Of a stretch of DNA of 64,000 nucleotides, positions 4,209 to 63,264 are shown piece after piece (within the stretch, counting starts at the first letter, position 1; every line of letters starts with the position of its first letter). The DNA comes from Halorarum salinum (GTDB lineage Archaea; Halobacteriota; Halobacteria; Halobacteriales; Haloferacaceae): assembly GCF_013402875.1 (NCBI RefSeq), contig NZ_CP058579.1:620001-684000 (forward strand), read 5' to 3'. The position numbers were made by a program, and so were the translations under genes. The notes beneath the pieces were generated by a model, which was not told the origin of the DNA, did no database searches, and saw only the letters and a program-made list of their open reading frames with translations.

Positions 4209-4665
4209 GCGCGCGAGGGACGAGAAGTGCAGCGTGAGTGACCGGAGGGAGCGAACGCGAGGAGTGCAGGAGGCTGCTCACGCGAGCGGAGTCGTTCGAA
4301 AGGCGCTTCGCGCCTTTCGTGATGCTGCCGGATTAGGAATCTGGCCGCTGACGGGAACTCGGGGAGTTCCCGTACCGACGAAGATCTTCGATTTTCGAAC
4401 CACGAGGGCGAGTTCCGAGGAGCGTGCTCCGAGGTACGGGAGGGTGAGGCCGCGGTGCGGTCGGCCGAGACTGGAAGAGGCCGCGGCGTTCGCGGGCGCA
4501 CGCGCCCGTGAATTCGGGAGGGCGTGCTCTCCCGTAACTCGACGAACCCAGGACCCGCCAAGCACCGGAGCGCGAACGGAGTGAGCGCGGGGAGCACAGC
4601 GTGGTCCGCGGGAGTCGAGAGCCGCGGGGGCTTTCGGGAACTGCTTCCCGGCGACCGAATCGACA
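4209..4665 (+). repeat. Dispersed modular intergenic repeat, copy A
   Basis: This is the longest-ranging copy of the family. Modules in order are a GCGCGAGGGACGAG box (about 4210-4223), a GAGTGACCGGAGGGAGCG stretch, GCAGGAGGCTG (4266-4276), a hairpin cassette (4297-4430), a GGTGCGGTCGG..GGAAGAGGCCGCGG box (about 4454-4486), CAAGCACCGGAGCGCG (4559-4574) and GAGCCGCGGGGGCTTTCGGG (4619-4638) with GAACTGCTTC. The cassette holds perfect hairpins at 4297-4306/4310-4319 and 4351-4360/4364-4373, a 12-bp palindrome at 4379-4390 and GGAGC/GCTCC near 4419-4430. The gap 4025-4809 holds no convincing gene. Confidence 0.75.
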
Positions 4666-13454: not shown

Positions 13455-13640
13455 TCGAACCCTCCGCGGCTCTCGACTTCTGGTTCGGTCAGTACGTCGC
13501 CGCACGGTTCTCGAAAGCCCCCGCGGCCCCTTTCAGTCCCGCCCGACCGCACCACAACCTCGCCCTCCCCAGCCTCCTGCGATGCTCGCTCGCTGCGCGT
13601 CTCGTCCCTCGCGCGGGTCGGCCGCGCGCCGACGCAGGCC
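13455..13640 (-). repeat. Dispersed modular intergenic repeat, copy B
   Basis: Minus-strand copy. It includes CGCGCGAGGGACGAG-like sequence (complement of about 13600-13614), GCAGGAGGCTGGGGAGGGCG, GGTGCGGTCGGGCGGG, CTGAAAGGGGCCGCGGGGGC and TTTCGAGAACCG. Here the AAAGGGGCCGCGG box is fused directly to the GCGGGGGCTTTC box; in copies A and E these are separated by the CAAGCACCGG module. It lies in the 643-bp gap 13245-13887, where no gene was found. Confidence 0.72.
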
Positions 13641-29699: not shown

Positions 29700-30098
29700 G
29701 GCAGAGGGAGCCCGATCCCCGTGCCCCCGCAGTCGCGGCGTCGCCGCCGGGACCCGTCGGGGCATGAGGAAAGTCCCCCCACCGCCCGGACGGGCGACCG
29801 GACGCAAGTCCGGAGCCGGAGACGGCTGGCGCTGGAACAGAAACGACACCCCCCGGCCCGACCGATGAGGTCCGCGAACCGACCCGCGAGGGGAGGGAGT
29901 TAACCGACCGAGGGCCCCGAGACTCCGCGTCTCGCGACGGCCGGGAACGGATGGAACGGCGAATCCTCGCCGGTGCAAGTCCGCGCCGACGGGGCGCACA
30001 CGCGCCCCCGATGGTAGTCCGGCCGCCGCCTCGCGCGGCGAGGCGCGGACGCGTAGCCGAATGTCGGGACGAACAGAAGGGGGCTTACTCCCCTCAGC
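29700..30098 (+). ncRNA. rnpB: RNase P RNA (archaeal type A)
   Basis: This is the catalytic RNA that trims tRNA 5' leaders. The universally conserved segments are all present in order: GAGGAAAGTCC at 29766-29776, GGAACAGAAACGACACC near 29834-29850, a GGTGCAAGTCCG block near 29970-29981, and the end block TAGCCGAATGTC...ACAGAAGGGGGCTTAC up to 30087. P1 pairs GAGGGAG (29704-29710) with CTCCCCTC (30088-30095), which sets the ends to within a few bases. A perfect small hairpin CCGCCGC-GA-GCGGCGG (30105-30120) follows and may mark the 3' end or termination. Confidence 0.96.
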
Positions 30099-40587: not shown

Positions 40588-40883
40588 CATCGAGCAGTTG
40601 CCGAAAGCCCTCGCGGCGCTGGACGAAGGCGCGGACCGCCGAGCACCGCAGCGCGAGTGTAACGAGCGCGAGGAGCGCAGCGGCCGCACCGAGTCGAGCG
40701 CCGCGGCCCCTTTCAGTCCCACCCACCGCACCGCGGCCACGCCCTCCCCAACCGGCGATGCCCTCCCTCCGGTCGGGACCTCGCCTCACCTCGGAGCGAG
40801 CTCCTCGGAACTCACCCTCGCTGCGGTCGCGTGAGCCTCGCACGAGCGGCCGCGCTCCGCGCGGCCGCCGCGCGCCACGTGGC
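40588..40883 (-). repeat. Dispersed modular intergenic repeat, copy D
   Basis: Minus-strand copy. The complement contains the left end (CGCGCGGCGGCCGCG, 40858-40873), GAGTTCCGAGGAGCTCGCTC (shared with copies A and F), GGTTGGGGAGGGCGTGG, GGTGCGGTGGGTGGG, CTGAAAGGGGCCGCGGCGCT and CGCGAGGGCTTTCGGCAACTG. A second, degenerate GCCGCGAGGGGTTCCGGAAA block follows near 40540-40563. It is head to head with copy E. Together they fill the 860-bp gap 40386-41245, which has no gene. Confidence 0.7.
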
Positions 40884-40937
40884 TAGGTTCAATGAGTGCG
40901 GTGGCGCGTGCCGGCGGGCCTCCGTGCCCGCCGGACG

Positions 40938-41162
40938 TGCGCGAGGGACGAGCACCGGTGTGTGAGCGACCGGAGGGAGCGAACACGAGGAGCACAGGAG
41001 GCTGCGGTGCGGGCGGGACTGGAAGGGGCCGCGGCTGTCGGCGAACCCCGACCACGCAAGCACCGGAGCGCGACCGGAGGGAGCGCGAGGAGCGCAGCGT
41101 CGGTCGCGGGAGTCGACAGCCGCGGGGGCTTTCGGGAACTGCTCCGCGACGACCGAATCAAC
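40938..41162 (+). repeat. Dispersed modular intergenic repeat, copy E
   Basis: The most compact full copy, with modules in order: TGCGCGAGGGACGAGCACCG (40938-40957), GAGCGACCGGAGGGAGCGAA, CACAGGAGGCTG, GGTGCGGGCGGGACTGGAAG, GGGGCCGCGGCTGTCGGCGA, CAAGCACCGGAGCGCGACCG, GAGCGCGAGGAGCGCAGCG and GTCGACAGCCGCGGGGGCTT followed by TCGGGAACTGCTCCGCGACG. It lies between the divergent repeat D and the 3' end of the subtilase gene. Confidence 0.75.
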
Positions 41163-50586: not shown

Positions 50587-51075
50587 GGCGCGCGGCGGCC
50601 GCGCCTCGGTCACGCGAGCGAGGGTGACCTCACGGGACCGCAGGTCCCGGGTAGTGTGCGACCGAATACGCGCGAGGGATGAGTGAGCGACCGAGCGGCA
50701 GCGAGGGAACGAGCGAATCGGCTGGGGAGGGCGTGGCTGCGGCTACGGTGGGTTGGACCGAAAGGGGCCGCGGCTCTCGGGGAAGCACGGGCGGTCAAGC
50801 ACCGGAGCGCCCGAACGGAGTGAAGGGGCGAGGGTCACGTGAGCACCAGCGAGCGTGACGGTTCGAGACGGCGTGGCCGTCTCGTCGTGCCGAAAATCTC
50901 CGATTTTCGTGCACTTCCGAGGAGCTTGCTCCGAGGTAAAGCGCAGCCGGCCGCGCGAGTCACGCGAGCGAGGGTGACAACGGAAGTCACGGCCCGCACA
51001 GCGAACGTAGTGAGCGAGCAGGACCGTCTTCCGGTAGCCGAGACCCGCTGCCCCTTTCGGGAACTGCTCCATGAC
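50587..51075 (+). repeat. Dispersed modular intergenic repeat, copy F
   Basis: This long plus-strand copy fills most of the 623-bp gap 50545-51167. It starts GGCGCGCGGCGGCCGCGCCT, includes CGCGCGAGGGATGAG, CTGGGGAGGGCG, CCGAAAGGGGCCGCGGCTCT and CAAGCACCGGAGCGC, then a hairpin cassette with perfect stems CGAGACGGC/GCCGTCTCG (50864-50884) and CGAAAATC/GATTTTCG (50891-50909). It then has TTCCGAGGAGCTTGCTCCGA, and ends at CCCCTTTCGGGAACTGCTCC. The cassette parallels that of copy A. Confidence 0.72.
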
Positions 51076-54813: not shown

Positions 54814-54870
54814 GGAGCGGCGCGTTCGGGTCGGTTCAGTCGTACGCCTCCGGCACAACCATGACGACCT

Positions 54871-55068
54871 CGAAAGCCCCCGCGGCTGTCGGCGAACGCG
54901 GACGAGACAAGCACCACAGTGCGAGCGACCGAAGGGAGCGAGCGCGAGGAGCGCAGCGAGGGTCACGCGGACGGAGTGAGGGTGACCTCGGAAGTCGCAG
55001 CCGACGAGCGCAGCGAGGAGGACCGTCTTCCGTAGCCCCGGAGCCGACAGCCGCGGGGGCTTCCGCGG
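54871..55068. repeat. Dispersed modular intergenic repeat, copy G, with 20-bp terminal inverted repeat
   Basis: Bounded by AAGCCCCCGCGGCTGTCGGC (54874-54893) and its perfect reverse complement (55043-55062), giving a 189-bp unit. Inside are CAAGCACCACAGTGCGAGCG, GAGCGCGAGGAGCGCAGCGA, AGGGTCACGCGGACGGAGTG and a GGAGGACCGTCTTCCG block shared with copy F. The structure resembles a miniature inverted-repeat element, though no target-site duplication was identified. It fills the 342-bp gap 54814-55155. Confidence 0.78.
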
Positions 55069-55155
55069 TCGTTGCCACAGCGATACGTCGACCTCCACCC
55101 ACGGGGAGGGTACCTATTCCCGCAATTTTTGTACGCTCGCGGCGACCCCCGACCC

Positions 55156-63066: not shown

Positions 63067-63264
63067 CTCGAAAGCCTCCGCGGCTGTCGGCTCGGGGACC
63101 GCAACTGCGCTCCTCGCCTCGGTCGCGCCGCTCCCTCGGCCGCGGTGCTCGTCCCTCGCGCGCGTCCGGCGGGCACTACCCGGGACCTGCGGTCCCGTGC
63201 GGTCACCCTCGCTCGCACGCTCGCTCGCGTGACCGAGGCGCGGCCGCCGCGCGCCAAGTGGCTG
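63067..63264 (-). repeat. Dispersed modular intergenic repeat, copy H
   Basis: Minus-strand copy in the 435-bp gap 62977-63411. The complement holds GGCGCGCGGCGGCCGCGCCT at the left end, then CGGTCACGCGAGCGAGCGTG, GGGACCGCAGGTCCC, CGCGCGAGGGACGAGCACCG, GGCGAGGAGCGCAG and GCCGACAGCCGCGGAGGCTT followed by TCGAG. Its left end is nearly identical to that of copy F, and its right end to the terminal repeat of copy G. Confidence 0.74.

Follow-up and report, generated by a model that had tools for sequence, protein, structure and literature searches.

A probable rearranged member of a dispersed haloarchaeal hairpin family in the NaPRT–ilvA intergenic region

The NaPRT–ilvA intergenic region contains a long inverted repeat

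The window (the whole 64-kb stretch of DNA analysed) is part of a two-contig, 4.26-Mb haloarchaeal genome, G000. Within it, the repeat designated copy G lies between a phosphoribosyltransferase gene with QRPTase domains (NaPRT) and a threonine-dehydratase-like gene (ilvA; PALP match and a below-cutoff ACT match), with 50–100 bp separating it from each. The perfect 20-bp terminal inverted repeats and 189-bp unit previously described at this position were borne out: the 20-mer AAGCCCCCGCGGCTGTCGGC occupies positions 54874–54893 and its exact reverse complement 55043–55062, giving an outer span of 189 bp. Extended outward, the arms reach 30 bp and are 93% complementary (54864–54893 and 55043–55072). 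The left arm, on the plus strand, comprises the foot and stem that we term E, while the right arm, on the minus strand, is a second E foot at the end where canonical members of the family have a different foot, F. Enclosed by these arms are (i) the conserved interior of the family (GCTGCGCTCCTCG...GTGGTGCTTGTC on the minus strand; 54906–54961), identified by covariance model and alignment, and (ii) an additional internal stem module of 44 bp, delimited by CGGAAG and CTTCCG (54989–55032), which is shared with the element at C1:1255927 in an alignment and has a match at window positions 50950–51039.

As the window is 71.5% GC and contains GAGCG-rich tracts, we considered whether chance or low-complexity sequence explains the repeat. 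When up to three mismatches were allowed, AAGCCCCCGCGGCTGTCGGC matched six times in the window, relative to 0.02 matches expected from shuffled sequence, and the left-end motif CGAAAGCCCCCGCGGCTGTCG matched 93 times in G000, relative to none for its reversed control. The 209-bp stretch containing copy G folds at -117.5 kcal/mol (z = -6.1). Together, the shuffled and reversed controls and the fold score exclude chance for the copy G repeat, and we rejected this explanation as having negligible probability.

Members of the repeat family in the G000 genome

A blastn search of G000 yielded 102 pieces of the repeat family, and the blocks around E motifs typically extend over 150–600 bp. The E end reads CGAAAGCCCCCGCGG... 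and the F end reads ...CCGCGGCCCCTTTCAG or ...GCCGACAGCCGCGGCCCCTTTCAGTCCC. The sequence-only reading had described the other copies as one-ended, which is literally true of the 20-mer but misleading, since most copies in G000 are two-ended: 60 E-F units, bearing the different inverted end F, were recognised among the extracted copies, with a modal span of 111–118 bp. The canonical unit, of approximately 113–127 bp, consists of an E foot (C-GAAAG-CCC), a 14-bp variable stem, an interior with conserved CTGCGCTCCTCG...CTGCGGTGCTT, the complementary stem, and an F foot (CCC-CTTTC-AGTCCC). The two feet pair, as do the stems, and between them CCC faces CCC in a 3-nt internal loop. Although the stem sequence varies from unit to unit (e.g., CTGTCGGC, GCTCGGG, TGCTGGAC, and GTTCTCGGC), the two arms of each unit are complementary to one another. 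Some units have the interior flipped with respect to the arms.

Units occur singly, as tandem partial copies, and as composites of the form E-F-M-F'-E', five of which were found. The composite in the window (40600–41136) consists of two inverted hairpin units around a central module of approximately 300 bp that starts and ends with F sequence; its left half is an E-F unit on the plus strand (40600–40718), recognised by arm pairing and the model. The canonical full-length E-F unit at 41017–41136, on the minus strand, matches the covariance model of the family, R1, at 100 bits over all 121 positions. Elsewhere in the window are an E-F unit with an enlarged interior (4469–4638, minus strand, 66 bits), an E-end copy with a weak full-length match (63067–63204, plus strand, 35 bits), and a short E-F remnant that retains hardly any interior (13510–13540, plus strand). 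The window also carries an archaeal RNase P RNA gene (RF00373, 102.6 bits) at 29749–30092. Tandem E arms were observed at several sites in G000, typically exactly 57 bp apart and with degenerate copies further out (C1:615848/615905, 3857961/3858018, 4007742/4007799, and 1575860/1575917, among others). Convergent, tandem, and divergent intergenic gaps are all occupied, and in 31 tandem-gene cases, with genes called by codon-position GC content rather than from annotation, 16 units were in the sense and 15 in the antisense orientation.

Covariation of the hairpin arms

Within the 60 units, a unit's own arms pair at 7.18 of 10 variable positions, compared with 5.86 ± 0.12 when arms were re-dealt among units; the maximum of 5000 such shuffles was 6.28. 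In an alignment of 36 sequences from G000, 95.3% of the cells pair and 62 double changes were counted, relative to 19.3 ± 3.1 in shuffled alignments (covariation, 0.269 versus 0.099). The corresponding values for an alignment spanning eight genera were 95.9%, and 162 relative to 49.2 ± 5.2 (covariation, 0.597 versus 0.149). Across these eight genera the feet covary as well, GAAAG/CTTTC being exchanged with GGAAG/CTTCC. The CCCxCCC internal loop is present in 35 of the 36 rows of the G000 alignment and 36 of the 37 rows of the cross-genus alignment (71 of 73 rows combined, the two alignments having five units in common). A covarying stem enclosing an invariant internal loop implies that the fold of one strand, as DNA or RNA, is maintained.

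An asymmetry between the strands provides a hint as to which one folds. On the E-to-F strand of the cross-genus alignment, A-C mismatches outnumber G-T pairs by 21 to 1, or 16 to 1 when each genus and pair is counted once, many of the A-C cells coming from one pair; within G000 the asymmetry is weaker (17 versus 9). Because ordinary double-stranded DNA mutation gives no excess of A-C over G-T, this pattern hints that the opposite, F-to-E strand is the one that folds, either as RNA or as single-stranded DNA.

The covariation could also be a mutational by-product of template switching or gene conversion between arms or between copies, with no selected structure. Consistent with such an origin, the pairing is extreme, and the perfect arms of copy G are what palindrome correction would produce. 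Moreover, at the lone orthologous site with a scorable unit in both G000 and its congener G002, the arms differ greatly, indicating that part of the covariation comes from turnover of copies or conversion among them; too few orthologous units were scorable in these two genomes for a series of compensatory changes at fixed sites. Indiscriminate correction, however, should erase the CCCxCCC mismatch that nearly all aligned rows retain, and we regard a purely mutational origin as unlikely.

Distribution among haloarchaea

Matches to R1 (E ≤ 0.01) were found in 39 of 60 haloarchaeal genomes, with 50–60 matches, 60 being the scoring cap, in the three congeners and in G008, G015, G016, G042, and G059. 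Units taken from other genera have the same architecture with genus-specific stems. The hairpin is also present in plasmid records from Halobaculum, Natrinema, Haloplanus, Haloarcula, Haladaptatus, and others; the Haloarcula record carries no annotation, and the other four records inspected have no feature under the match. Phage records yielded no match to the family. A unit of the E-F type was observed at positions 503–700 of locus L143 (PXRY01000048.1, from the metagenome-assembled genome Halobacteriales archaeon QS_8_65_32), the only place in the genome collection where a 25-mer matched exactly. Two loci of G015, L245 and L247, have tandem duplications upstream of the core that join apparently unique flanking sequence to an E arm (e.g., TCACTGTTCCGACAGAAAC + CACCGAAGCCCCAGCCGC, twice), a pattern that points to the hairpin as a site of slippage or template switching.

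Rfam (15) was searched at strict and lax thresholds: the copy G unit had no match, and the best hit over five related loci (E = 0.41) was far below the gathering threshold and outside the core. Literature searches by sequence and by terms, with mostly open-access coverage that leaves room for an earlier description, returned no account of the family, which is apparently undescribed. High-copy palindromic repeats such as REP, ERIC, and BOX are well studied in bacteria, whereas those of archaea have been little described. An element of conserved structure that most sampled haloarchaeal genomes contain, and that Rfam lacks, would explain much of their recurring GC-rich intergenic sequence.

Evidence of mobility

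Target duplications were looked for at the unit flanks in G000, as the sequence-only reading had proposed, but the best scores for duplications and terminal repeats did not exceed those of a control pairing unrelated flanks. Of 80 repeat blocks in G000, 16 have both flanks co-linear within 1.2 Mb of the G002 genome, and 10 of these have E and/or F motifs there. Such motifs are absent from the co-linear G002 positions of three G000 sites (1255927, 1575730, and 520661). The intergenic sequence is too divergent to reveal insertion boundaries, but species-specific empty sites exist.

The marks of mobility, i.e., terminal repeats abutted by 8-bp duplications, were found only in G034, a genome of the related genus g6, as judged from the sequences of its copies. 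At three loci (L263, L269, and L270), exact duplications of 8 bp (AGACTGTA, CCGCTCCC, and CCGACCGC) directly adjoin terminal repeats of the form GGTaCTGTTTAGTTAa (GGtaCTGTTTAGTTAa), with 12–14 of 16 positions matching. The ends of these elements lie exactly 49 bp to either side of the core, which is thus at the exact centre of a total length of 215–216 bp. G034 also contains IS6 elements of 697 bp whose ends are the same, and an IS6 transposase (NF033587) is detected above the cut-off in both G034 and G000. IS6-family elements with TGTTTAGTTAAG-type ends were observed at L282 and L288 (G034; 697 bp each) and at L286 (G000), whose transposase frame contains two stop codons. Elements of the IS6 family duplicate 8 bp of target sequence, and their ends have GG tips with a cTGTt motif (PMC7986276).

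In genus g6 (G034), the core thus forms the centre of IS6-type miniature inverted-repeat transposable elements (MITEs), which we postulate to have been moved in trans by IS6-family transposases. In the window's genus, recombination and the turnover of modules would now be the main sources of change among copies. Three of the 11 G034 copies have clear IS6 ends; in the others they are decayed or unrecognisable, yet the cores remain paired, suggesting that the hairpin core is probably kept for a reason other than IS6 transposition. The presence of IS6 insertions with intact duplications in one genus, and of hairpins without them elsewhere, provides a system in which to ask if hairpins of this kind are mere passengers, act as parasites, or serve a function.

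One such reason would be that the core acts as a structured RNA, or as a hairpin of one particular DNA strand in single-stranded form, selected for a cellular or selfish function, with mobility being incidental. Compensatory changes over eight genera, the invariant internal loop, and intact cores in G034 copies that lack clear IS6 ends are all consistent with this idea, as is the A-C excess on the E-to-F strand, which folding of the opposite strand, with wobble pairs tolerated, would produce. Conversely, the asymmetry is weaker within G000, every gene arrangement is seen with no orientation bias, Rfam contains no match, and the many copies are nearly interchangeable; on balance, we view selection for such a function as possible but doubtful. 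A broader proposal, which we offer only tentatively and think rather unlikely, is that haloarchaea as a group carry strand-specific hairpins with a fixed CCCxCCC loop (GGGxGGG on the opposite strand) that are recognised in single-stranded form by an enzyme or act as RNA, IS6 MITEs being only one of the vehicles that picked them up.

Structure and origin of copy G

The match of R1 to copy G is partial (54886–54974, 32 bits, model positions 18–103). On the minus strand, copy G can be aligned from end to end with the E-F element that begins at C1:1255927, and the two share the extra internal stem (CGGAAG...CTTCCG). Their main difference is that in copy G the F foot CCCCTTTCAG is replaced by the E foot GGGCTTTCG. 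By this alignment, copy G is best read as a derived hybrid: an E-F unit with extra internal stems that carries a second E foot in place of the F foot.

Copy G had been put forward as the best candidate for a complete miniature inverted-repeat element, of which the other copies would be composites or decayed forms. It is indeed the sole copy with a perfect 20-bp inverted E pair. However, (i) 60 units share the E-F architecture, and it is this architecture, not E-E', that recurs in other genera; (ii) the model match of copy G is partial, at 32 bits, compared with 100 bits for the full-length unit at 41017–41136; (iii) pairing through the stem is confined to copy G among the listed E..E' candidates; and (iv) in G000, target duplications with terminal repeats did not rise above control. 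That copy G is the intact prototype is thus very improbable, and we rejected it on the partial model match and the unique E-E' form. What remains of the proposal is a dispersed family with inverted ends and, in G034, a MITE built around the same core.

The F and E' arms of composites carry GCCGACAGCCGCGG in the same orientation, so a single deletion between these direct repeats in an E-F-M-F'-E' composite would yield copy G. This would be the simplest route; alternatively, palindrome correction of the CCCxCCC mismatch could give the same end product. A possible natural parallel to the deletion is offered by one orthologous site, occupied by a 697-bp composite in G000 and by an E..E' form of approximately 75 bp in G002, where the change may have gone in either direction.

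The genes around copy G have been rearranged among congeners. In G000 the order is NaPRT–[copy G]–ilvA, and the genes X and usp are adjacent with no element between them (C1:674813–675160 and 768828–768887), while in G001 the orders are NaPRT–[M F' E' element]–usp and X–[E..E' element]–ilvA (C1:2247956–2248596 and 2462152–2462553). These are reciprocal rearrangement junctions whose breakpoints coincide with hairpin elements, linking the copy G family to a site of genome rearrangement. In G002, no element adjoins ilvA, which lies next to a different gene, and a degenerate module follows NaPRT; NaPRT and ilvA are thus non-adjacent in both congeners examined. Mobility had been considered unlikely should all relatives prove to have the same unit at the same place and no empty allele. 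As gene orders and elements differ in G001 and G002, the same unit is not present throughout, but the available species also provided no clean empty allele of this exact gap. Overall, the explanation that we favour, and consider probable, is that copy G belongs, as a rearranged member, to a dispersed haloarchaeal family of non-coding hairpins that has spread as outlined above.

Comparison with known systems

In architecture, compared by description, the family bears a strong resemblance to the small mobile repeats (SMRs) of Haloquadratum walsbyi. SMR-A (HqIRS42/43/55) is approximately 110 bp long, has prominent inverted terminal repeats, and is present in tens of copies per genome; it encodes no transposase, its mobilisation has been called enigmatic, and it is often nested in other mobile elements (PMC3119063). 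The likeness is to the 60 units with inverted ends and a modal span of 111–118 bp, not to copy G (189–209 bp). Unlike SMR copies, which are commonly >95% alike within a type, the units described here have variable stems with pairing kept and a conserved internal loop, and while SMR-A inserts into PATE/IS605 palindromes (PMC3119063), the flanks here are mostly ordinary intergenic regions.

Two examples of IS6-family MITEs, of 227 and 336 bp, have been reported (PMC7986276). The 216-bp elements of G034 resemble them in having IS6-type ends, 8-bp duplications, and 697-bp IS6 partners in the same genome, whereas G000 copies have neither IS6 ends nor above-control duplications. Judged by their ends and duplications, some relatives of copy G belong to this class, namely the three G034 copies, but copy G does not, its ends being ACGACCTCGAAAG and ACGACCGCGGAAG rather than the IS6-type GGt..TGTTTAGTTA. 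In addition, conservation is higher in the internal hairpin than at the ends, opposite to the pattern of an ordinary MITE.

REP/BIME sequences, which are associated with RAYT transposases, are intergenic, high-copy, bulged palindromes of 20–40 bp (PMC3733652). The haloarchaeal family shares their intergenic location, high copy number, bulged palindromes, and single and paired inverted arrangements, but its units are longer (113–127 bp) and have GAAAG/CTTTC feet, with no GTAG/CGTC tag seen. Finally, PATEs are palindrome-associated, IS605-related elements without terminal inverted repeats, in which repeat-mediated core deletions are documented (PMC3119063). Although the units here are bounded by such repeats, both groups are palindromic, non-coding, and haloarchaeal, and the core deletions of PATEs resemble the route proposed for copy G.
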